The position numbers were made by a program, and so were the translations under genes. Under the pieces are notes generated by a model. It was not told where the DNA came from. It searched no databases and saw only the letters and a list, made by a program, of their open reading frames with translations. From a virus: DNA of 31,714 bases. Of this stretch, positions 2,200 to 26,260 are shown piece by piece. The number at the start of each line of letters is the position of its first letter. Positions within the stretch are counted from its first letter, which is position 1. The stretch is taken from IMG/VR virus record IMGVR_UViG_3300021961_000377, positions 1-31,714 of that record; one strand, written 5' to 3'.

Positions 2200-2580
2200 A
2201 TGAAGGCAAACGTGTTATATTTTAAGTTAGTTACAGGAGAACATATCATCTCTATTATTGATAGTATGGATCAAGAATATATTTTATTGCACAAACCTTT
2301 GCAATTATTTTTGCAAAATACCATGGGCGGTGCATCAGTAAGAGTGGCAAAATGGATTCCATTTACAGATGAAAATGACTTTCCTCTACAAGTTCGCCAT
2401 GTTCTCATGAAGGCAAAACCTACAAAAGATATAATAGATTATTATTTTAACGCTTTGGATAGGTTAAATGAAATCATAAATACCAAAGAGGAAACACAGG
2501 ATTTTTTAGAAAAAGATGAAGAGGAAATAACTCTGGCTATGTTTGAAAAGTTTTCTAATACTAGTATAGTGGTGCACTAA
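2200..2580 (+). CDS. Conserved-looking hypothetical protein, possible small beta-barrel
   Basis: 126 residues, not recognised with certainty. The first ~60 residues read as alternating beta strands (VLYFKLVTGEHIISIID, then a second hydrophobic strand YILLHKPLQLFLQ), which could suit an Sm-like or other small barrel; this is inference from pattern only. The second half is acidic and helical, ending FSNTSIVVH. AGAAAGG at 2184-2190 precedes the ATG. It sits between uvsW and the late sigma factor, with its stop overlapping the next ATG (TAATGG), so it is cotranslated with gp55. No catalytic motif seen. Confidence 0.7.
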   Translation: MKANVLYFKLVTGEHIISIIDSMDQEYILLHKPLQLFLQNTMGGASVRVAKWIPFTDENDFPLQVRHVLMKAKPTKDIIDYYFNALDRLNEIINTKEETQDFLEKDEEEITLAMFEKFSNTSIVVH

Positions 2581-3149
2581 TGGTTAAAACAAAAAAAACA
2601 AAACAGCACTATGTAAATAATAAGGAATTTCTTGCGGCTATGATTGATTACCGTGAGAAAGTTGAAATTGCTAAGAGCGAGGGAAAGGAACGACCTCTCG
2701 TATCACCATATATCGGTGAATGCCTTATGAAGATTGCAGTGAATTTATCACACAAGCCAAATTTTATTAACTACACTTTCAAGGAAGAAATGATTTCGGA
2801 CGGTATTGAAAACTGTCTGCAATATATTGATAATTTTAATCCTGAAAAATCACAGAATCCATTTGCATATTTTACTCAGATTATTTACTATGCATTCCTT
2901 CGTCGTATTCAAAAGGAAAAGAAACATCTCTATACAAGGTATAAGTTAATGGGTGAGATGGAAGTGATGAACATGACAAGCGATAATCAAGCTCACGATT
3001 CATCTGATTATACACCAGCCGGTAAGGCAAATGAGTGGAGCCGTGAACATGTTAGTGTATTTATTGAAACTTTTGAAGAAACCAAGCGCCGGAAAAGGAA
3101 TAAGAATAAGAATGCAATGCCCATTGATGTTTTATTAAATGATGAGTAA
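2580..3149 (+). CDS. 55: Late-transcription sigma factor gp55
   Basis: 189 residues (T4 gp55 is 185). gp55 replaces the host sigma on RNA polymerase and recognises the late -10 element TATAAATA; it also binds the sliding clamp. Similarity to T4 is clear in YVNNKEFL near the N-terminus, EEMISDGIENC, the segment FNPEKSQNPFAYFTQIIYYAF (sigma region 2-like) and RRIQKEKKH. The C-terminus ends MPIDVLLNDE, a hydrophobic tail in the position of the T4 clamp-binding tail (SLDFLYE). Start overlaps the stop of the preceding gene. A fitting late promoter (TATAAATA) occurs at 15698. Confidence 0.9.
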   Translation: MVKTKKTKQHYVNNKEFLAAMIDYREKVEIAKSEGKERPLVSPYIGECLMKIAVNLSHKPNFINYTFKEEMISDGIENCLQYIDNFNPEKSQNPFAYFTQIIYYAFLRRIQKEKKHLYTRYKLMGEMEVMNMTSDNQAHDSSDYTPAGKANEWSREHVSVFIETFEETKRRKRNKNKNAMPIDVLLNDE

Positions 3150-9205: not shown

Positions 9206-9878
9206 CATTCGTCAATATTTTATCGACGAACTTGCTGCTGAAAACTTTGTGACCGACAAGACAGGTGTAAAAACCATTGAACTTGTCGGCGCAAGTTTTC
9301 ACGCAGACGAGCCAACTATCTTTGGTAAACTTAATGATGACTATATCAAGCGCGAACTTGCATGGTATAAATCTAAGTCACTTAATGTTAATGATATTCC
9401 AGGGAAGACTCCTGAGATATGGAAGATGGTTGCCGACAAAGATGGATATATCAACTCGAACTACGGTTGGTGTATCTGGTCAGATGAGATCGATAGTTCT
9501 GATACTGTTATGCGAAATAAAGGTCGGCACAATCATGGCCAATATTGGCGTGTGTACAATGAGCTCTCTAATAATAGAGACTCTCGTCGAGCTGTAATGA
9601 TATACACTCGGCCAACTATGCATGAAGATTATAATAGAAATGGTATGTCTGACTTCATGTGTACGAATGCTGTGCAGTATCTTATTCGAGATGATGTTCT
9701 CAACGCCATCGTTCAAATGAGATCTAACGATGTAGTGTTTGGCTATCGTAATGACTTTGCCTGGCAAGATTACGTTGCTTCATTGCTTGAAACTGCTCTC
9801 AGATGTGATGGTCGAAAAATTATTTGGAACGTAGGAAGCTTGCATGTATATGAACGACATTTCTCGCTCGTGGAATGA
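9189..9878 (+). CDS. 42: Deoxycytidylate 5-hydroxymethylase (gp42)
   Basis: 229 residues, very similar to T4 gp42, a thymidylate-synthase-fold enzyme that turns dCMP into 5-hydroxymethyl-dCMP using methylene-tetrahydrofolate. Long matches include DKTGVKTIEL, GASFHADEP, the NSNYGW segment, DSRRAVMIYTRP and SDFMCTN. Catalytic Cys158 and Asp189 correspond to T4 Cys148 and Asp179 (constant offset of 10); the Asp selects cytosine over uracil. Start at ATG 9189 is supported by AGGGA 9176-9180. The C-terminus ends right after SLHVYERHF, about 20 residues earlier than in T4. Strong sign of hydroxymethylcytosine DNA. Confidence 0.93.
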   Translation: MQSVSDIRQYFIDELAAENFVTDKTGVKTIELVGASFHADEPTIFGKLNDDYIKRELAWYKSKSLNVNDIPGKTPEIWKMVADKDGYINSNYGWCIWSDEIDSSDTVMRNKGRHNHGQYWRVYNELSNNRDSRRAVMIYTRPTMHEDYNRNGMSDFMCTNAVQYLIRDDVLNAIVQMRSNDVVFGYRNDFAWQDYVASLLETALRCDGRKIIWNVGSLHVYERHFSLVE

Positions 9879-10329
9879 AAAGTATCTTGGGCTTGCGCGT
9901 TTTGTCTCAAGTTGGAGCAAAGATCCTTCTACTCAAGTAGGAGCTGTTGCAGTCGGTGACGTTGGTCAGATACTCGCTACGGGTTATAATGGATTTCCAA
10001 GAAGTATTAATGACTCAGAATATCGATTGACAAATCGTGAAGAAAAGTATAAGTTTGTAGTACATGCTGAAATGAACTGCATATATAACGCAACTCACAA
10101 TGGAGTATCACTGAAAGGCGCTACACTATATGTATGGGGCCTACCTGTATGCAGTGAATGTGCAAAGGGTGTAATTCAAGTTGGTATCAAGCACGTTGTG
10201 ATGCCAAAAGATGAAGGTGTTGTCCCTTTGAAGTGGACTAAATCTTTTTTAGAAACTGCTGAAATGTTTGATGAAGTTGGCGTGACATATGAAAAAATCA
10301 GTATTAGTAGTTGGAATGAATCCATCTAA
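9844..10329 (+). CDS. cd: Deoxycytidylate deaminase
   Basis: 161 residues. Zinc-dependent dCMP to dUMP deaminase, supplying dUMP for dTMP synthesis. Active-site motifs: H74-A-E76 (FVVHAEMN) and C103-S-E-C106 (PVCSECAKG). DPSTQVGAV and TGYNGFPR are also typical of dCMP deaminases, which are usually regulated by dCTP and dTTP. AGGA at 9833-9836 lies 7 nt before the ATG. Overlaps the 3' end of gp42 by 35 nt, and its own end overlaps the following gene by 41 nt. Confidence 0.92.
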   Translation: MYMNDISRSWNEKYLGLARFVSSWSKDPSTQVGAVAVGDVGQILATGYNGFPRSINDSEYRLTNREEKYKFVVHAEMNCIYNATHNGVSLKGATLYVWGLPVCSECAKGVIQVGIKHVVMPKDEGVVPLKWTKSFLETAEMFDEVGVTYEKISISSWNESI

Positions 10330-10651
10330 AGTATCTTATTGTGGTACTTTTAAGAGACTTGAAAATTGGATGGAACGTGTTGGTGTAACATATTATGGAT
10401 TTATGAACGTATACAACGAGCAAGGATCTTTTAAAAAAACAGATATTGATTATGAATATGTTTCGCAATGTATAAATAATCACACCACTATCGTAGCACT
10501 TGGTAATGTAGCATCTGAAGTTCTCACTAAGTTGGATAAAGATCATTTGAAAATGCCACATCCAAGTGGGTTGAATAGGTTACTAAACAACAAGGAATAT
10601 GAAAAACAAAAACTAAGTGAACTTAATGAGTATGTTAGTGAGCTACTCTGA
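10289..10651 (+). CDS. MUG-like member of the uracil-DNA glycosylase superfamily
   Basis: 120 residues. The N-terminal motif VLVVGMNPS and the C-terminal motif MPHPSGLNRLL match motifs A (G-I-N-P-G) and B (N-P-S-G-L-S-R) of MUG/TDG glycosylases, and IVALGNVASEVL is the usual strand-turn-helix between them. It is shorter than cellular MUG (about 168), so only a minimal fold remains. It could excise or bind modified or mismatched bases; given its place in the modification cluster it may read or process altered cytosine or uracil. Motif A ends in Ser rather than Gly, so activity is uncertain. Confidence 0.6.
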   Translation: MKKSVLVVGMNPSKVSYCGTFKRLENWMERVGVTYYGFMNVYNEQGSFKKTDIDYEYVSQCINNHTTIVALGNVASEVLTKLDKDHLKMPHPSGLNRLLNNKEYEKQKLSELNEYVSELL

Positions 10652-10703: not shown

Positions 10704-11981
10704 ATGTCTAAGATTAAAGTCGGCATTATTGGTGTCGGAAACTGCGCTCAATCTCTCGTAGAAGGCGTACAATATTATATTACTAATCCATCAGATACGG
10801 TTGGACTCATGTATCCAGATATTGGTGGATACACAGTCAACGATATTCAATTTGTAGTTGGTTTTGACGTTGACCGCCGCAAAGTGAATCGTCCACTTAA
10901 AGACGCTCTAAGAGCTAAACCAAACTGCGCTATGTATCATGTTGACGAGATCGATGATACTTGTGTCGCGACAAAAGCTATGGTATATTCTGGTCCAGAG
11001 CTTGATGGTGTTGCAGCACACATGCTTGATTATCCAGAAGATATTTCATTTAGAACTGGCGCTGAATCAGCTAAGTCATTTGATGATATCGTTGAGATCG
11101 TAAAGCAGAGTGGAGTTGATGTTCTCATCAATTATTTGCCCGTTGGTTCTGAAAAAGCCACTAAGTTTTACGTGGATGTAGCACTTGCTGCTAAAGTGCA
11201 TTTTGTAAACTGTATTCCTACTCTCATTGATACTAATACGACCAAGATTATTGAACAGAAGTTTATCGATAATGGTCTTACTATCGTTGGTAACGACATG
11301 CGGTCTGCATGGGGAGCATCACGTATGAGTGAAGTACTGCAGGGGGCTATGATTGATTCCGGTCTTATGGTAACTCAACATATTCAGATGAATATGGCGG
11401 CTGGTTCTACACAGGGGCAAGAAAATATTAGAACTGGACGTACTGCAAACTGCGATTTCTTGAATATGGCAAAACAAGAAAGACTTCATGACAAGCATGT
11501 CTCTAAGGAGAACGTGTTGAAAGGACAGAATGTAGTTCGCAATGAACCAACTGCTGGTATGACATTGTACGCGGGACCATCGTTAACAGTACTACAAAAG
11601 CCTGGTTCAGCTTATGTTGGATCAGATAACAAGATTGCAAACTTTGATATTGTTGCATATGGTTTTGGTGGCGCTCGATACGAGCTCACTGCTCGACTGT
11701 CTGTCCAAGACTCACCAAATTCTGGTGGTGTAGTGGTATCAGCAATTCGTTTCTGTAAAGTTGCGTCTGAGATGGGTATTGTAGGTTATCTTCGTGGCCC
11801 ATCAGCTTGGACTCAGAAAACGCCTCCTCTTCAGTTAAAGACTGAAGACGCAAAGTTTGAGTGCGACGCTCTTGCTCGACGAGAACTTACAAATCTTACT
11901 AGTATTCAGCTAAGTAAAAACTCACCAAAGGCCTCTAAGTTACAGTATACTTTTCAGGCTGGAAGCACAGACTACGAATAA
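10704..11981 (+). CDS. ino1: myo-Inositol-1-phosphate synthase
   Basis: 425 residues. NAD-dependent enzyme converting glucose 6-phosphate to inositol 3-phosphate (1L-myo-inositol 1-phosphate). Rossmann start GIIGVGNCAQSLVEG at 8-22 with GxGNCAxS; VVGFDVDRRK next; INYLPVGS and the block FVNCIPT in the middle; GDMRSAW-like segment NDMRSAWGASRMSE; the C-terminal stretch KIANFDIVAYGFGG and LSVQDSPNSGGVVV correspond to the dimerisation/catalytic domain. CAGGAGAAACAA precedes the ATG. Directly followed by a HAD phosphatase. A phage gene of this kind could serve host metabolism or supply inositol for DNA decoration; context favours the latter (inference). Confidence 0.88.
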   Translation: MSKIKVGIIGVGNCAQSLVEGVQYYITNPSDTVGLMYPDIGGYTVNDIQFVVGFDVDRRKVNRPLKDALRAKPNCAMYHVDEIDDTCVATKAMVYSGPELDGVAAHMLDYPEDISFRTGAESAKSFDDIVEIVKQSGVDVLINYLPVGSEKATKFYVDVALAAKVHFVNCIPTLIDTNTTKIIEQKFIDNGLTIVGNDMRSAWGASRMSEVLQGAMIDSGLMVTQHIQMNMAAGSTQGQENIRTGRTANCDFLNMAKQERLHDKHVSKENVLKGQNVVRNEPTAGMTLYAGPSLTVLQKPGSAYVGSDNKIANFDIVAYGFGGARYELTARLSVQDSPNSGGVVVSAIRFCKVASEMGIVGYLRGPSAWTQKTPPLQLKTEDAKFECDALARRELTNLTSIQLSKNSPKASKLQYTFQAGSTDYE

Positions 11982-12352
11982 TGATCGTTGTAAATAGTTA
12001 CGATATTGATGGGGTTATCATAATGGGCGAAGATAATGAGGGTCTTCGCCCAGGCCCTAACGATGTAATCATCACTGGTAGATCATACACTCAAAAGGAA
12101 GAAACATTAAGTATACTCCGTGGAAGGGGCATAAATAACTTTGTGTTTTTCAATCCTCTATCTCGCACGCACGAAGATTATAGTCGTGCAACTTCTGGAA
12201 GACACAAAGCAAAAGTATTGACATCTCTTTATGACTGTGGTACTATCGTAGCTAGGCATTTTGAAGATGATCCAATACAAATTGAAATGATTAAGAATTA
12301 CGGTCCAATCACTGTTAATGTGATACAAATTGGAAATTATAATGAACTATAA
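11981..12352 (+). CDS. HAD-superfamily phosphatase
   Basis: 123 residues. HAD motifs in order: SYDIDGVI near residues 6-13 (D-x-D nucleophile and acid), VIITGRS (motif II Ser/Thr), GRHKAKVL (motif III Lys), and HFEDDPIQIE (motif IV acidic pair). No large cap insertion, as in small phosphatases acting on compact or macromolecular substrates. Start overlaps the stop of the inositol phosphate synthase (TAATGA), so the two are produced together; removal of the phosphate from inositol phosphate is the simple reading (inference). Could also act on DNA-linked phosphate, like T4 polynucleotide kinase phosphatase. Confidence 0.7.
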   Translation: MIVVNSYDIDGVIIMGEDNEGLRPGPNDVIITGRSYTQKEETLSILRGRGINNFVFFNPLSRTHEDYSRATSGRHKAKVLTSLYDCGTIVARHFEDDPIQIEMIKNYGPITVNVIQIGNYNEL

Positions 12353-13403
12353 TTATGATTGGTGGTCTTATGATAAAAACTTGATGAGAGACTTTAATTG
12401 GTTTCTCTATAAAGTGAATCAACGCGCTTGCATTAATCTTGGTTATATAGATGAAGAATACCAATCACTTAATCGCGACGGTGAAGAAGATTATGGTCTT
12501 GGTAAAGACGTAGAATACTTTCATCCGACAATAACACTTGACGATAGAATGAGATATATAGCGCAAAATATTGCGCAATCTGATATGTCTCATTTTAATA
12601 TTCTTGGCAATACGATTATCTCTCACTTTTATGGAGCAAGGGGCGTACATCAGACAGTAACTGGTTCTGATGATCCAAATGATTGTTTTGTTGATTTTGA
12701 TCGTATTGCAGATGGCGATGATGATCTAGTTGAGTTCTATCGCAAGACAATTGACTACCAATCTAAGGTAAATAAGAAACCAATTTGGGGAACAACTGAA
12801 TTACACACATCGATTCAAACCGGTGCAAGAAACTATTGTCGACAAAAATCAGCTAACCCACAGAGGGAATTTCATCCAGTTGATGTTCTCGAATGGGTCG
12901 CGTCTTTTAGAGATAATGGTATCGGCGAAAAGCTATTAAAAACTGACTCTATGAAAGAAGCTTATGATATTCTCACAACACAAAGAGGAATTGGAGAATA
13001 TTATGGATTTCATTGTGGCGCGTCGACGAGTGTACTACCATTTTTAAAATATCATCACGATCAAAGATTTGTAGCGCCAGGACCCGGCGCAAGGTATACT
13101 ATTCAAAAACTTTGGCCTGAAGCGCCAAAGAAATTATACGATGAAGCAATTTATTTCTTAAGAGAAAATAGTGACGAAATTGGACTTACTGAAAACGTTG
13201 AGTTTCATGAAAAAGCTTATAACATTGATGGTATATTTACACAAGAGCAAGATAGTTTAAAATATTACGGAACTGAAGTTTTATCTTGTCAGTTTGGAAT
13301 CTATTTACAAATTAGAAATGATAAAAAAGCATGTGATAGGCGTAAAGTGTCTCGAATAGAGATTTCACAAAATACGTTAGAGGATTTTCTATGCGGAGCG
13401 TAA
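12342..13403 (+). CDS. Putative DNA base hypermodification protein, helix-hairpin-helix glycosylase-like fold
   Basis: 353 residues from ATG 12342 (a TTG at 12330 is also in frame). Around 215-224 it has RGIGEYYGFH, a helix-hairpin-helix-like GIG motif, and about 20 residues later VAPGPGARYTIQKL near 244-257. This GxGxYxxxx...GPGAR arrangement resembles the alpha-glutamyl/putrescinyl thymine pyrophosphorylase and hydroxymethyluracil kinase helical families found in phages with hypermodified bases. The C-terminus ends NTLEDFLCGA, a putative sliding-clamp peptide shared with the polymerase. Family call moderate; exact reaction unknown. Stop overlaps the next gene by 13 nt. Confidence 0.5.
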   Translation: MNYNYDWWSYDKNLMRDFNWFLYKVNQRACINLGYIDEEYQSLNRDGEEDYGLGKDVEYFHPTITLDDRMRYIAQNIAQSDMSHFNILGNTIISHFYGARGVHQTVTGSDDPNDCFVDFDRIADGDDDLVEFYRKTIDYQSKVNKKPIWGTTELHTSIQTGARNYCRQKSANPQREFHPVDVLEWVASFRDNGIGEKLLKTDSMKEAYDILTTQRGIGEYYGFHCGASTSVLPFLKYHHDQRFVAPGPGARYTIQKLWPEAPKKLYDEAIYFLRENSDEIGLTENVEFHEKAYNIDGIFTQEQDSLKYYGTEVLSCQFGIYLQIRNDKKACDRRKVSRIEISQNTLEDFLCGA

Positions 13404-14497
13404 TTGTAGCACCATTTATACCAATTTCATTTCAGGTACACTCACACCGCGCTGCCCAGGGTGTGATATATGCAGACATACTCAAGCAGTCTGGCCACTG
13501 TGCTGATATTGATATTAACATGTCACGATCAAACGTTCAGGGTGAAAACGCTATTGATGAAAATAAGTATCAAGACTTTAATGAATACGATAGACTCTAC
13601 ATTTATCACGGTAATGATAGGCCAGCTGACTCAAAAGATCTCAATTTTTTTGGTGGAGTGAAACACTTTCCTCACGCATATAATATTAGAAATATTTCTA
13701 AGTTCAAAGGCGAGGTTTATTCAGTTCCATACGATATGCCTGATTATGCATCGATGTTGAATAATAAACTTACTAAATTCAAAGAAAAGTATCCGGATTT
13801 TACAAATAAGACAGTCCGTGATTTTTATGATACTGATATTGAGAATCTCAAAAAGATACAAGAAAGAGCAATTACAATTAATCCAATCGGGCCTTGGGAT
13901 AAGTTAGTTGCCGGCGATAGCCACGCGATCTGTATGTATCGGCCAGGTTGGAACGTAAATTCAGTTCCATTTAAAACACTACATGGAGCTTTAGAACAAG
14001 GTCTTGAAACATTTATTACAGTTCCAAATGTAAATCATGTAGAATTTTACTTTGGTAATATCGATATTCGTCATCATGTTTGTCGTCTTGAAAACACTCA
14101 TGAAGTTATAGATAAACTTGTAAATAGATATATTGATCAGGTAAGCAAGATGAGTTATAAATCAAAGGCGATTTATGAGCTGTTACCTATTGAAAATGAA
14201 AGTAGAACTTTACCTAAGAGCGGATTCTATGATGGTAAACCATTCTGGGGTTCTTGGCAAGAGAGAACAAATGCTCGAAAATATTTCAATGAACAAATGA
14301 AGTTAAAGACAAAAAACACTGATATTGAATTTAAAGAGTGGATCACTCCAGAATTTTATAATGAGAAAGGTGAGATGGATTTTAAAGTTATGGAAAAGCC
14401 TAAGTCAGTTCATCTTTCGAGAAAGTACTATCCTTATTGGCAAGGATTAGAGTATAATGGCATAAAGAAAACAAACTTGGAAGATTTTTTCTCATGA
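13391..14497 (+). CDS. Two-part protein with SGNH/GDSH hydrolase-like C-terminal half
   Basis: 368 residues. The first ~160 residues (start RSVIVAPFIPISFQVHSHR, then IYHGND) are unrecognised, perhaps Rossmann-like. The second half opens with AGDSHAI (Ser-containing GDS block at about 175-178) and has YFGNIDIRHHVC near 217-228, like the FGEID-C-R-x-H block of SGNH-fold proteins of bacterial glycan and sulfation clusters. These would be blocks I and III/V of an esterase or acyltransferase. Ends TNLEDFFS, the clamp-like tail. AGAGGA, inside the LED codons of the upstream gene, serves as its ribosome site. Confidence 0.5.
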   Translation: MRSVIVAPFIPISFQVHSHRAAQGVIYADILKQSGHCADIDINMSRSNVQGENAIDENKYQDFNEYDRLYIYHGNDRPADSKDLNFFGGVKHFPHAYNIRNISKFKGEVYSVPYDMPDYASMLNNKLTKFKEKYPDFTNKTVRDFYDTDIENLKKIQERAITINPIGPWDKLVAGDSHAICMYRPGWNVNSVPFKTLHGALEQGLETFITVPNVNHVEFYFGNIDIRHHVCRLENTHEVIDKLVNRYIDQVSKMSYKSKAIYELLPIENESRTLPKSGFYDGKPFWGSWQERTNARKYFNEQMKLKTKNTDIEFKEWITPEFYNEKGEMDFKVMEKPKSVHLSRKYYPYWQGLEYNGIKKTNLEDFFS

Positions 14498-15702
14498 AAC
14501 ACGCAGCTATCATTCCCCTTATTGGCGGTGAAGTACTCGCCTCTGACCAAGTGTGGGGTAACCGACCAGAATATATTTTAAGCTATTCAGCTTTTAAGGA
14601 TAATGAATCACACTTACTTAATTATTATAATAACGAGATTCCTTATCACGTACTTGATGAAGGAGGTTCGGCTCCTGGAAGAGTAGACGTTGTATCGTCT
14701 GTTTGTCCATGTGCTGGTTTAAGCCAATATCATTCTAAGCCCGGCGCTCACAACGAGAATAATCAGTGGATGAGGAAGACAGCTCATTACATTCTTGGTG
14801 AGGTAAAGCCACTCGTTTTTTGGGGTGAGAACGCTCCAGCGCTCGTAGGTAAGATTGGTAAGTTTATGCTCGATGAGTTGAGACAAATCTCTCTTGATAA
14901 TGGATATGGCATGAGCGTATATCTTACTAAGAACCTATCGCATGGAGTCGCACAATTTCGTAAGAGATCGTTTTATTTCTTTTGGAATAAAAAAGAGTTT
15001 GGTGAAAAGACGCCCATCTTAAATTATTATGAACGGCCGCATCAAAGGATCGAAGAAGTTATTGCCAATGTGACAAGTAACTTCCAGATGGAACCAATTA
15101 ATAAAGGAACTCCATCTAAGGATGATCCATATTATCGTTATCTTTTAGAGGAAGTACTCGATGGAGCTTCTCATAAAGAGTATTATAACATACTCGAAGC
15201 TCAACCATCTCGCGGTAATGATGTGGAGTCTATCTTAACAGATGTATATCAAAAAGACTATCGTGAAATTGGTGCATGGATGGAAAAAGAAGGATATGAA
15301 AGAGAAGTTCCAAAGTGTGAGAGAAAATATCTCAAGCTTGCTGATGGCGGTAATATCATGCGACGTGGAACTATAGTGCCAAAGGATTATATCGGCGCTT
15401 TTGTAGGTCATTATCCAAACATGCTCACTCATCCATATGAAGATAGATATATAACTTATCGAGAAGCTATGACTATTATGGGTTTACCGAGTGATTATGA
15501 ATTACTAAATCCTTCGAGATCTACTAATCATATTTGTCAAAATGTGCATTTTCAAACTTCGACAGATATGGCAACTGAAATCAAAGCCGTCTTAGATGGT
15601 GAGAGAAAATTTGCAGACACTGATTTCTTGTTTCAAAACAATTATCAGAAAAAACATGAAATTTGGAATGAAAGGCAGGCAACACTTGAGCATTTCCTAT
15701 AA
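14494..15702 (+). CDS. C5-cytosine DNA methyltransferase homologue
   Basis: 402 residues. Motif IV SVCPCAGLSQ at 69-78 with the nucleophile Cys73, motif VI GENAP at 111-115, motif VIII QFRKRSFYFFW from 154, and a C-terminal part with TYREAMTIMGLPSDYEL and ICQNVHFQTSTDMATEI, matching motifs IX-X. Motif I is weak (IPLIGGEVLASDQ). The catalytic set looks intact. The enzyme would flip a cytosine and attack C6; in DNA already carrying 5-hydroxymethylcytosine, plain methylation is not obviously useful, so a changed reaction or a different target is possible. Ends ATLEHFL, a clamp-like tail. ATGA overlap with the preceding gene. Confidence 0.75.
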   Translation: MKHAAIIPLIGGEVLASDQVWGNRPEYILSYSAFKDNESHLLNYYNNEIPYHVLDEGGSAPGRVDVVSSVCPCAGLSQYHSKPGAHNENNQWMRKTAHYILGEVKPLVFWGENAPALVGKIGKFMLDELRQISLDNGYGMSVYLTKNLSHGVAQFRKRSFYFFWNKKEFGEKTPILNYYERPHQRIEEVIANVTSNFQMEPINKGTPSKDDPYYRYLLEEVLDGASHKEYYNILEAQPSRGNDVESILTDVYQKDYREIGAWMEKEGYEREVPKCERKYLKLADGGNIMRRGTIVPKDYIGAFVGHYPNMLTHPYEDRYITYREAMTIMGLPSDYELLNPSRSTNHICQNVHFQTSTDMATEIKAVLDGERKFADTDFLFQNNYQKKHEIWNERQATLEHFL

Positions 15703-15964: not shown

Positions 15965-16804
15965 ATGGCTGAAATTACTATTGATATTGAGGAACTAAGA
16001 AAAAGAAAGATTTTTGTAGCTACACCAATGTACGGTGGTATGTGTGGCGGTCAGTATACAAAATCAACAGCTGAGCTTGCAAAACTTTGTCAGGCATATG
16101 GTATTACCATTGATTTCTTTTATCTTTTCAACGAATCGCTAATTACAAGAGCACGTAATTATTGTGCTGATGAGTTTCTTCGACAGAAGGATTTTACTCA
16201 TCTTATGTTTATTGATTCAGATATTGGTTTTAATCCAAACGATGTTCTTTCTCTCGCCGCACTTGCGGTAGACGATAAGGATATTATTTGTGGTCCATAT
16301 CCAAAGAAGACCATTTCTTGGGAAAAAATTAAAAAGGCAGTGGATAAAGGATTTGCCGACGAAAATCCACACGAACTACAGAACTTTGTTGGCGACTTTG
16401 TGTTTAATCCAACCGAAGGTCAGACTGAAATTCCACTTAATGAACCAGTTGAAGTTCTTGAGGGTGGTACTGGATTTATGATGATCCAAAGAGAAGCATT
16501 TGAAAAGTTCGAGGAAGCATATCCAGACCTTCATTATAAACCAGATCATGTACGATCAGCAAATTTTGATGGCACCCGTGAGATCATGTGTTACTTTGAT
16601 GCTCTTATTGATCCAAAGTCAAAGCGGTATTTATCGGAAGACTATATGTTCTGTCAGTGGTCACGTGAGATCGGTCTGAAGGTTTGGATGTGCCCTTGGA
16701 TGCAGTTGTCACACACGGGTACATATACCTTTGGTGGTTCTCTTACCCATCTTGCACAGGTCGGTGCATCTGCTACTGCTGATCCAAATGAAAAAATTAG
16801 ATAG
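15965..16804 (+). CDS. Glycosyltransferase, GT-A fold (putative)
   Basis: 279 residues. KIFVATPMYGGMCGG near the N-terminus is the nucleotide-sugar-binding start; MFIDSDIGFN at 81-90 holds the D84-S-D86 metal motif; GGTGFMMIQREAF near 169 and LSEDYMFCQW later correspond to acceptor and catalytic-acid regions; LSHTGTYTFGG lies near the end. Such proteins transfer a sugar from a nucleotide donor. In T4 two enzymes glucosylate hydroxymethylcytosine, but those are GT-B; this one is unrelated in fold. Position behind gp42 and the methyltransferase homologue suggests DNA as acceptor (inference). AGGAGAAGTAA lies before the ATG. Confidence 0.7.
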   Translation: MAEITIDIEELRKRKIFVATPMYGGMCGGQYTKSTAELAKLCQAYGITIDFFYLFNESLITRARNYCADEFLRQKDFTHLMFIDSDIGFNPNDVLSLAALAVDDKDIICGPYPKKTISWEKIKKAVDKGFADENPHELQNFVGDFVFNPTEGQTEIPLNEPVEVLEGGTGFMMIQREAFEKFEEAYPDLHYKPDHVRSANFDGTREIMCYFDALIDPKSKRYLSEDYMFCQWSREIGLKVWMCPWMQLSHTGTYTFGGSLTHLAQVGASATADPNEKIR

Positions 16805-16886: not shown

Positions 16887-17537
16887 ATGAATATCTCAAC
16901 CAACACTCTTTCTGTGCTAAAGAGTTTTACTTCTATTAATCCATCTCTTTATGTAAATTCAGGAAACGTCATCAAGACTATTTCACCTCAGAAGACCATC
17001 ATTGGTCGGGCCGAGGTTGACGACAGTTTTGATGTGCCGTTCGGTATCTATGATCTGAATCAGTTCCTCAGTACTGTAAGCATCTTCGAGTCACCTGACT
17101 TTGAGTTTAGTGATCGTTCGGTTGAAATCAAGAATGGTGTGTCGTCTGTAACCTATGGTTATGCCGATGCCAATATGATTATGCAGGCTCCAGAAAAGGA
17201 TCTAGATTTACCTGATACTGTCGTTGAATTTGAACTCAAGGACGCGGTATTCAAGAAGACCATGCAGGCGGCTAGTGTTCTTCAGCTTCCTAACTGGTCT
17301 GTTATTGGCGCCGGCGGTGATGTGACTCTGGTTGTTGGTAACTCTAAGGATGAGTCATCTAATACCTTCCGTCACGTTGTCGGTTCGACCGACCTTGACT
17401 TTGAACTTGTTTTCAAGGTAGAGAATCTTCGGTTTATGCCTGCTGATTATAAAGTAAAGATTTCTTCGAAGGGCATTAGCCACTTCTCAACTAATGGAGG
17501 TAAGCTGCAGTACTACATTGCAACTGAAAGCCGGTAA
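16887..17537 (+). CDS. 45: Sliding clamp gp45
   Basis: 216 residues (T4 gp45: 228). Homotrimeric ring that tethers polymerase gp43 to DNA and activates gp55-dependent late transcription. Similarity to T4 runs along the length: N-terminal LSVLKSFTSINPSLYVNSG, FDVPFGIYDLNQFLS, and a C-terminal NGGKLQYYIATESR like the T4 ending with a YVVALE-type strand. GAGGAT before the ATG. First gene of the block 45, zinc-ribbon protein, 44, small genes, 62, regA. Proteins encoded in this window carry candidate peptides that could dock on it. Confidence 0.93.
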   Translation: MNISTNTLSVLKSFTSINPSLYVNSGNVIKTISPQKTIIGRAEVDDSFDVPFGIYDLNQFLSTVSIFESPDFEFSDRSVEIKNGVSSVTYGYADANMIMQAPEKDLDLPDTVVEFELKDAVFKKTMQAASVLQLPNWSVIGAGGDVTLVVGNSKDESSNTFRHVVGSTDLDFELVFKVENLRFMPADYKVKISSKGISHFSTNGGKLQYYIATESR

Positions 17538-22331: not shown

Positions 22332-22406
22332 TCCTCAGTAGCTCAGCGGTAGAGCAGACGGCTGTTAACCGTCCGGTCGGTGGTTCGAATCCATCCTGAG
22401 GAGCCA
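22332..22406 (+). tRNA. tRNA-Asn (anticodon GUU)
   Basis: Acceptor TCCTCAG (22332-22338) pairs with CTGAGGA (22396-22402). D arm GCTC...GAGC, anticodon stem GACGG/CCGTC with loop CTGTTAA and anticodon GTT at 22364-22366, T arm GGTGG-TTCGAAT-CCATC, discriminator G, CCA encoded at 22404-22406. All stems perfect. The phage itself is rich in AAC/AAT codons. Confidence 0.95.
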
Positions 22407-22604: not shown

Positions 22605-22680
<76 letters not shown>

Positions 22681-23764: not shown

Positions 23765-26260
23765 ATGGTGACATTCTACACTTCAGTCGAGAGAACGGCC
23801 AACGACATTCTGTATGTTGGCTATGACGGGAAACGAAGAGTGGTCGAGAAGGTTCGCTTTCAACCGACCCTCTTCGTTCCTACTCGTAATAAAACAAAAT
23901 ATCGTACCCTCGATGGTTATACCGTCGACTCTATTCAACCTGGCAGCATGATGGATTGCCGGGACTTTATCCGTGAGACAGAGGCGGATAACTTTCCCAT
24001 ATATGGAAATCGAGATTATATCGCTCAGTTTATTGGTGACAAATTTCCAGATGGCTGCATACCAGATACCTCGGTGATGAATATCTCATTTATTGACATT
24101 GAGGTACAATCAGATCAAGGTTTTCCAGAGCCTTCTCTGGCTCAACAGCCAATCACTGCCATTACAATCAAAAATAATCTTGATGATACCTTCTACACTT
24201 GGGGTATTGGCGGATTTGAATCTGACAACTCTATTGTTCAGGATAAGCGTATTGAGTACATTCGTTGCCAAGATGAATTTGTTCTTCTAAAGAGTTTTCT
24301 AACTCACTGGCAGAAAAACACACCTGATATTATCAGTGGTTGGAACTCGGAAGACTTCGACATGACATACCTTATTAATCGTGTTGCGCGAGTCCTCGGT
24401 GAGGATCAACTTCGTAAGTTCTCATTGTTTAATATCAAACCAGAAGCTCGAGATACATCCTATAATATTATCGGTACTACCCAACTTGACTTTATGAAAC
24501 TCTTTAAGAAGCTTGGTTATAACTATGGTAACCAGGAGTCATATAAACTTGACAACATTGCAAACGTTGTACTTGGCGAAAAGAAACTCGACTATTCTGA
24601 GTACTCCTCCCTTGCGGCTCTATACCGTGAAAATCATCAGAAGTTCATTGATTATAACATCCGGGACACTCAACTCGTCGAGCGAATGGAGGACAAGACA
24701 GGGTTTATTGCTCTCGCTATGACACTTGCTCATAAGGCTAATGCGAATTACGTGACTTCTTTTGGGTCTGTGAAGATCTGGGATACGTACATCTACAATG
24801 TGTTGAAAAAGCAAAATATAGTTCTTAATCCACAAGATGAAGTTAATAGCGATAGGCGAATTGAAGGTGCTTATGTTAAAGAACCTCAGAAAGGTATGCA
24901 CGAGTGGGTCTGTTCATTTGACTTGAATTCCCTGTACCCGCATCTTATCATGCAGTATAATATGTCACCTGAAACTATTATGGACGGCGTGCTACCTGGC
25001 GTGGATGTGGAAAGTCTATTGTGTCATATAGATCTCAATATTCCTAAAGATGCATGCGTTGCTTCTACTGGCCAATTGTTCAGTACTAAATCAAAAGGCG
25101 TTTTCCCTCAGATCGTTGATAGTCTCTACAATGAACGTACAATTGTCAAGAAAAAAGCACTTGAAGCAAAACAACTCCTTGAAAATACTGCCAAGGATCA
25201 GGTGTTTGAGAGAGCTCAGATTGAAAAAGATATTGCCAGGTTCGACAATGAACAAATGGCAGTTAAAATTCTGATGAACTCTCTTTATGGTGCTTTGTCG
25301 AATAAATGGTTTCGATATTATGATATTCGAATGGCAGAGGCAATTACCATTTCCGGACAGCTTACAATTCGTTGGGCTGAGAATACTATCAATGAATATC
25401 TCAATCGTATACTTAAAACAAATAAAGTCGATTATGTTATTGCTATCGACACTGACAGCCTTTATGTTAGAATGGGTGAGCTCGTCAAACAAGTCATGCC
25501 CAATGAAACTGACCAAGATAAAATCTGTAAGTTTATAGACAAAGTGTCAGAGCAGAAGATTGAACCTCTCTTAGAAAAAACTTATAAAAATCTTAAAGAA
25601 TATGTGCATGCCTATGACCAACGTATGCATATGAAACGAGAGATTATTGCATCGAAGGTTATCTTTACTGGTAAAAAACGGTATATTGCAAACGTGCTCA
25701 ATAACGAAGGTGTACAATATGCAAAACCAAAGATCAAGATTACCGGTATTGAATCAGTTCGATCTTCGACCCCTCAGGTGTGCCGTAAACTCATTGAAAA
25801 GACTCTATCGCTCATCATGAACAAGGATGAATTTGCTGTACAAAAATTCATTGAAACCGCCAGAGGTGAGTTCCAAAAACTAAATCCAGAAGATGTTGCC
25901 TTTCCTCGTGGTGTATCTAATATATGGAAACAGCAAAAAGAAGGTGTTGGTGTTCCTATTCACGTTCGTGCATCTCGTCGCTATAATCAACTGATAAAAG
26001 AGTTGAATATAAATAATAAATATGAAGAGATAAAGAATGGTGATAAGGTTAAATTTACATATCTGAAAATGCCAAATCCAGCTAAACAGAACGTGATTGC
26101 CTTTCCTATTATTTTACCACCCGAGTTTGATCTGAAACGATTTATAGACTATGATATGCAATTTGACAAGTCTTATGTTGAACCTATCAAGAACATACTT
26201 GATGCTATTGGATGGTCGGTAGAAAGAACAAATACTTTAGAGGATTTTTTTAATGGCTGA
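23765..26260 (+). CDS. 43: DNA polymerase gp43 (family B)
   Basis: 831 residues (T4: 898). Replicative polymerase with 3'-5' exonuclease. Exonuclease motifs: DIE near 110, SGWNSEDFDMTYL and YNIRDTQLVERM. Polymerase motifs: A DLNSLYPH at 386-393, B KILMNSLYG at 501-509, C DTDS at 562-565, and KKRY later. N-terminus VTFYTSVERTANDILYVGYD aligns with T4, fixing the start. No Shine-Dalgarno sequence is visible before the ATG, and the promoter lies immediately upstream. C-terminus NTLEDFFNG is the clamp-binding tail, equivalent to T4 SLDFLFG. Stop overlaps the next gene. Confidence 0.96.
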   Translation: MVTFYTSVERTANDILYVGYDGKRRVVEKVRFQPTLFVPTRNKTKYRTLDGYTVDSIQPGSMMDCRDFIRETEADNFPIYGNRDYIAQFIGDKFPDGCIPDTSVMNISFIDIEVQSDQGFPEPSLAQQPITAITIKNNLDDTFYTWGIGGFESDNSIVQDKRIEYIRCQDEFVLLKSFLTHWQKNTPDIISGWNSEDFDMTYLINRVARVLGEDQLRKFSLFNIKPEARDTSYNIIGTTQLDFMKLFKKLGYNYGNQESYKLDNIANVVLGEKKLDYSEYSSLAALYRENHQKFIDYNIRDTQLVERMEDKTGFIALAMTLAHKANANYVTSFGSVKIWDTYIYNVLKKQNIVLNPQDEVNSDRRIEGAYVKEPQKGMHEWVCSFDLNSLYPHLIMQYNMSPETIMDGVLPGVDVESLLCHIDLNIPKDACVASTGQLFSTKSKGVFPQIVDSLYNERTIVKKKALEAKQLLENTAKDQVFERAQIEKDIARFDNEQMAVKILMNSLYGALSNKWFRYYDIRMAEAITISGQLTIRWAENTINEYLNRILKTNKVDYVIAIDTDSLYVRMGELVKQVMPNETDQDKICKFIDKVSEQKIEPLLEKTYKNLKEYVHAYDQRMHMKREIIASKVIFTGKKRYIANVLNNEGVQYAKPKIKITGIESVRSSTPQVCRKLIEKTLSLIMNKDEFAVQKFIETARGEFQKLNPEDVAFPRGVSNIWKQQKEGVGVPIHVRASRRYNQLIKELNINNKYEEIKNGDKVKFTYLKMPNPAKQNVIAFPIILPPEFDLKRFIDYDMQFDKSYVEPIKNILDAIGWSVERTNTLEDFFNG

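Follow-up and report, generated by a model that had tools for sequence, protein, structure and literature searches.

Three adjacent genes in a 31,714-nucleotide stretch of viral DNA (IMG/VR record IMGVR_UViG_3300021961_000377, positions 1 to 31,714; hereafter the window) code for proteins with the same C-terminal ending as the phage's own DNA polymerase, gp43 (Table 1). Judging from the sequences, this ending is very likely a C-terminal sliding-clamp-binding motif (SCBM) that docks DNA-acting hypermodification enzymes on the surface of gp45 used by gp43, modifying newly copied DNA. The original prediction, that an aGPT-like protein, a protein designated P2, and a C5-cytosine methyltransferase (C5-methylase) homologue may all dock on gp45, is supported by the analysis below. 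The four C-termini on which it was based proved correct when re-read from the open reading frames, and the clamp gene it named has a PF09116 match (E 6e-11), with gp45 of RB69 (E 4e-17) and of T4 (E 2e-15) as its best PDB matches.

Table 1. Positions in the window of the tail-bearing genes, their tails, the clamp and related features
Feature	Position	Strand	Basis or remark
aGPT-like protein, 357 aa	12330..13403	+	HMUDK_hel domain (PF18723)
Tail NTLEDFLCGA of aGPT-like protein	13371..13400	+	Tail score 17.2
P2, 368 aa	13391..14497	+	phrog_13881 (function not assigned); SGNH/GDSL-hydrolase fold in AF2 model
Tail TNLEDFFS of P2	14471..14494	+	C-terminus; gp43-tail matrix
C5-cytosine methyltransferase homologue, 402 aa	14494..15702	+	PF00145
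Tail ATLEHFL of C5-methylase homologue	15679..15699	+	C-terminus; gp43-tail matrix
gp45 sliding clamp, proposed docking partner	16887..17537	+	PF09116; PDB matches
gp43 family-B DNA polymerase	23765..26260	+	Profile match
gp43 clamp-binding tail NTLEDFFNG, reference motif	26231..26257	+	T4 and RB69 gp43 precedent
gp55 late sigma factor	2580..3149	+	Ends MPIDVLLNDE
Inositol-3-phosphate synthase homologue, precursor-type cassette enzyme, without tail	10704..11981	+	
dCMP deaminase, precursor enzyme, without tail	9844..10329	+	

The aGPT-like protein matches the HMUDK_hel family with an E value of 1.6e-11, and its structural model has a weak and possibly fortuitous likeness to PUGT, the phage 5-PmdU glycinyltransferase, as a candidate PUGT/AADT-like 5-phosphomethyl-pyrimidine transferase fold (TM ~0.4-0.5, E ~1-2). 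The C5-methylase homologue matches its family with E 3e-15 and contains the catalytic PC, ENx, and QxRxR motifs, present as CPCAGLS (VCPCAGLS), ENAP, and QxRxR; a role as a CmoX carboxymethyltransferase was considered and ruled out, as the SPPC motif is absent and VCPCAGLS is found instead. Neither Pfam nor NCBIfam places P2 in a named family; its AF2 model resembles SGNH/GDSL hydrolases (Foldseek E 4e-6, prob 1.00, TM 0.35 by query and 0.58 by target), and GDSH and GNID blocks are invariant among its homologues, giving P2 both the fold and the GDS and GN blocks that characterize these hydrolases. The initial description of all three as modification proteins thus has no family assignment behind it for P2, whose role in modification we infer from its neighbors and its tail.

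Several neighboring genes may bear on the base chemistry. In 97 of 97 loci, the aGPT-like gene has an inositol-3-phosphate synthase homologue no more than 3 kb away (in the window, 10704-12352 with 12330-13403), and this homologue is absent from all 28 of the 28 loci that have P2 without aGPT; an inositol-derived base modification is our guess. A thymidylate-synthase-family protein (PF00303; 9129-9878), possibly a pyrimidine hydroxymethylase, adjoins the dCMP deaminase, and the product of 10289-10651 shows weak similarity, short of the cut-off, to the uracil DNA glycosylase superfamily (E 1.4e-4). Elsewhere in the window, genes for tRNA-Asn (22332-22406) and tRNA-Thr (22605-22680) lie within a stretch of raised G+C.

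C-termini were scored with a matrix trained on 17 non-redundant gp43 tails and nothing else, using a cut-off of at least 8. The claim that the shared ending goes beyond chance was borne out, with the same four proteins taking the top four places among 47 scored window ORFs (21.7, 17.2, 15.2, and 11.7) and the next best scoring 2.0. Homologues were taken from IMG/VR, each read through to its stop codon, and families were counted as non-redundant sequences from 382 loci. The cut-off is reached by 17 of 20 aGPT-like representatives, 37 of 43 for P2, and 47 of 79 for the C5-methylase, the rest of which are mostly xLxxF[MLI] variants; together this is 101/142, compared with 9/3,316 background C-termini and 0/337 across ten control families, and because the sequences share descent, the Fisher value is descriptive only. 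These counts already refute an origin by chance or shared ancestry, whether through convergence on hydrophobic ends or through recent copying of a DNA segment, an origin that we find barely credible. The motif is short, and a broader pattern without the acidic residue, which we rejected as too loose, also picks up genes with no relation to these enzymes, among them one for a conserved baseplate hub protein; however, the tail is retained in relatives down to ~27-45% identity, and the same residues are encoded by codon strings that differ among all four genes. The tail is thus not a copied DNA segment, and in view of the differing codons we reject both duplication of a gene and copying of DNA as sources of the common ending.

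Loss of the tail in close homologues had been set beforehand as the outcome counting against docking on gp45; instead, it is strongly kept, distant homologues included, and nearly all homologues of the three enzymes in IMG/VR end x-L-x-x-F-[FLMI]. Compared pairwise, the sequences are 0.82-0.90 identical at the core L and F positions, against 0.09-0.23 in the preceding 16-residue linker. In the AF2 models, pLDDT is below 50 at residues 341-349 and 355-357 of the aGPT-like protein and for residues 351-368 of P2, and this low-confidence modelling is consistent with flexibility of both tails.

The tails also match the gp43 ending of their own phage, in the Aeromonas lineages as in the window. Aeromonas phage gp43 ends NNLFDMFDI, and P2 of phages phiAS4 and 25 ends TLELFDI; in 44RR (L124:4849-7236) and UP87 (L425:2965-5382), P2 and aGPT are fused, and a single tail, SLDGLFAI, stands at the fused C-terminus. 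Among the 246 ORFs of 44RR and the 259 of phiAS4, a gp43-like ending is limited to gp43 and the P2/aGPT protein. The gp43 of S-B43 was left out of the comparison, as its match extends no further than query residue 753 and the frame as annotated has the ending NKPVQMIEI. The adjoining genes and the fusions would suit a tail that is a structural or assembly element joining the modification enzymes to each other, its likeness to gp43 being coincidental; but gp43 has the same ending, the ending varies with gp43 by lineage, the linker is poorly conserved and the tail modelled at low confidence, and the carriers have different folds, all of which make such a role highly improbable.

The tail is lost where there is no T4-type clamp. 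We found no gp45 match in S-TIM5, phage G, PTm1, or ctUhy936, and the tail is absent in five of five homologues from these phages (the S-TIM5 C5-methylase and AGT, the phage G C5-methylase, the PTm1 P2, and the ctUhy936 TAGT). A clamp is not always accompanied by tails: in XG4, which encodes gp45 and whose gp43 ends SLDDLFM, the C5-methylase homologue lacks the tail, and CmoX, CmoY, and CmoA of S-B43 lack it although gp45 (44% identical) is present, which rules out a universal tail rule for phage modification enzymes. Sequence alone names no binding partner, and at least two ligand sites have been described on gp45, leaving some room for a different partner that reads the gp43 C-terminus, such as the clamp loader, RNA polymerase, or a recombination protein. 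We consider this improbable, since the published ligand of such tails in T4 and RB69 is gp45, homologues from gp45-less phages lack the tail, and T4 alpha-GT is itself known to bind gp45. Because the tails follow the gp43 ending of their lineage, are missing without a T4-type gp45, and are carried by homologues of T4 alpha-GT, the site on the clamp used by gp43 is by far the more probable target.

A scan of seven complete contig sequences from phages, each of 56-164 kb, places the strict motif mostly on gp43, P2, C5-methylase, aGPT, and AGT (T4 alpha-GT homologues), and also on a recurrent 186-203 aa ORF and a 122 aa ORF, both of unassigned identity. The 186-203 aa ORFs of L040, L054, L031, and L042 end xVExFxKxF or RIERFLKxF, a second candidate clamp-like tail. 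Carriers outside the query families are T4 alpha-GT homologues (PF11440), TAGT (PF20691), and GT4-type and GT10-like glycosyltransferases; several of the nine background matches are putative DNA glycosyltransferases, and the nine also include a baseplate hub protein and an unassigned 148 aa protein. DNA-decorating enzymes of seven or more kinds, for the most part unrelated to one another, have the tail in T4-like marine phages. Among the enzymes, it is restricted to those expected to act on DNA, and the precursor-making neighbors (inositol-phosphate synthase, dCMP deaminase, sugar epimerase, UDP-sugar dehydrogenase, and nucleotidyltransferase) are without it. About half of the AGT-like representatives also lack the tail, and several of these, just ~30% identical, may be other glycosyltransferases. 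A GT2-like protein encoded between the C5-methylase homologue and gp45 (15965-16804), conserved in many related phages, is likewise tail-less.

We propose that the core [TS]-L-[ED]-x-F-[FLMI], followed by 0-3 residues and borne on a flexible linker, acts as the clamp-binding motif, by which the aGPT-like protein, the SGNH-fold P2, and the C5-methylase homologue would dock on the gp45 surface also used by gp43. Having the same tail as the phage DNA polymerase, these enzymes probably ride the sliding clamp; tethered to it and sliding with it, they would modify newly copied DNA. We infer physical binding to gp45, the timing during replication, and the chemistry of the base, with modification presumably following replication on the moving clamp. 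If so, hypermodification in many T4-like phages would be physically coupled to replication by one portable peptide, and this coupling would go some way toward explaining how new DNA gets its modifications ahead of any encounter with restriction enzymes. Because several proteins found by the tail alone are putative DNA glycosyltransferases, the tail offers a sequence test for DNA-acting modification enzymes among uncharacterized phage genes, and its deletion would separate clamp docking from catalysis. More speculatively, the gp45 trimer could be an assembly platform whose three sites hold the pathway enzymes, the base being passed from the C5-methylase homologue to P2 and then to aGPT behind the fork, with the tail as a portable address label by which AGT, TAGT, and GT4 are recruited and new modification enzymes can be recognized from the C-terminus alone; we regard this fuller scheme as doubtful.

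In T4, gp43, gp55, and gp33 bind gp45 through interchangeable C-terminal motifs on divergent linkers (PMC2988020). The window tails are similar in being hydrophobic/acidic peptides at the extreme C-terminus, on divergent and apparently flexible linkers, in a phage that encodes gp45; they differ in lying on base-modification enzymes and in their consensus, TLEDFF rather than SLDFLF. The gp55 of the window has a divergent tail resembling that of T4 gp55, SLDFLYEAND. T4 alpha-GT likewise pairs a DNA hypermodification enzyme with a T4-type clamp, its interaction with gp45 being described in Sommer 2004 and shown again in 2026 (PMC13216743), a precedent that the original prediction did not mention. 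Clamp binding in T4 was reported not to be the main determinant of the larger share of glucosylation attributable to alpha-GT (PMC13216743), and the T4 enzyme ends FDIITK with no such tail, unlike its marine homologues, which have a C-terminal extension ending GLEEFF. In S-B43, a phage with gp45, a C5-methylase homologue also starts a hypermodification pathway (CmoX/CmoY; PMC12783734), but CmoX has SPPC and no clamp tail, in contrast to the CPCAGLS and tail of the window enzyme. A eukaryotic parallel is DNMT1-PCNA (cited in PMC9690074), in which a sliding clamp recruits a C5-cytosine methyltransferase to new DNA, as we propose for the window; there, however, a single enzyme is involved and not a set of unrelated ones. 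Our literature search, which covered few subscription journals, found no report of one clamp tail common to several modification enzymes. With clamp docking by one modification enzyme already known from T4 alpha-GT, the principle is not new; what does appear to be new is that many modification enzymes use it as a common tag.
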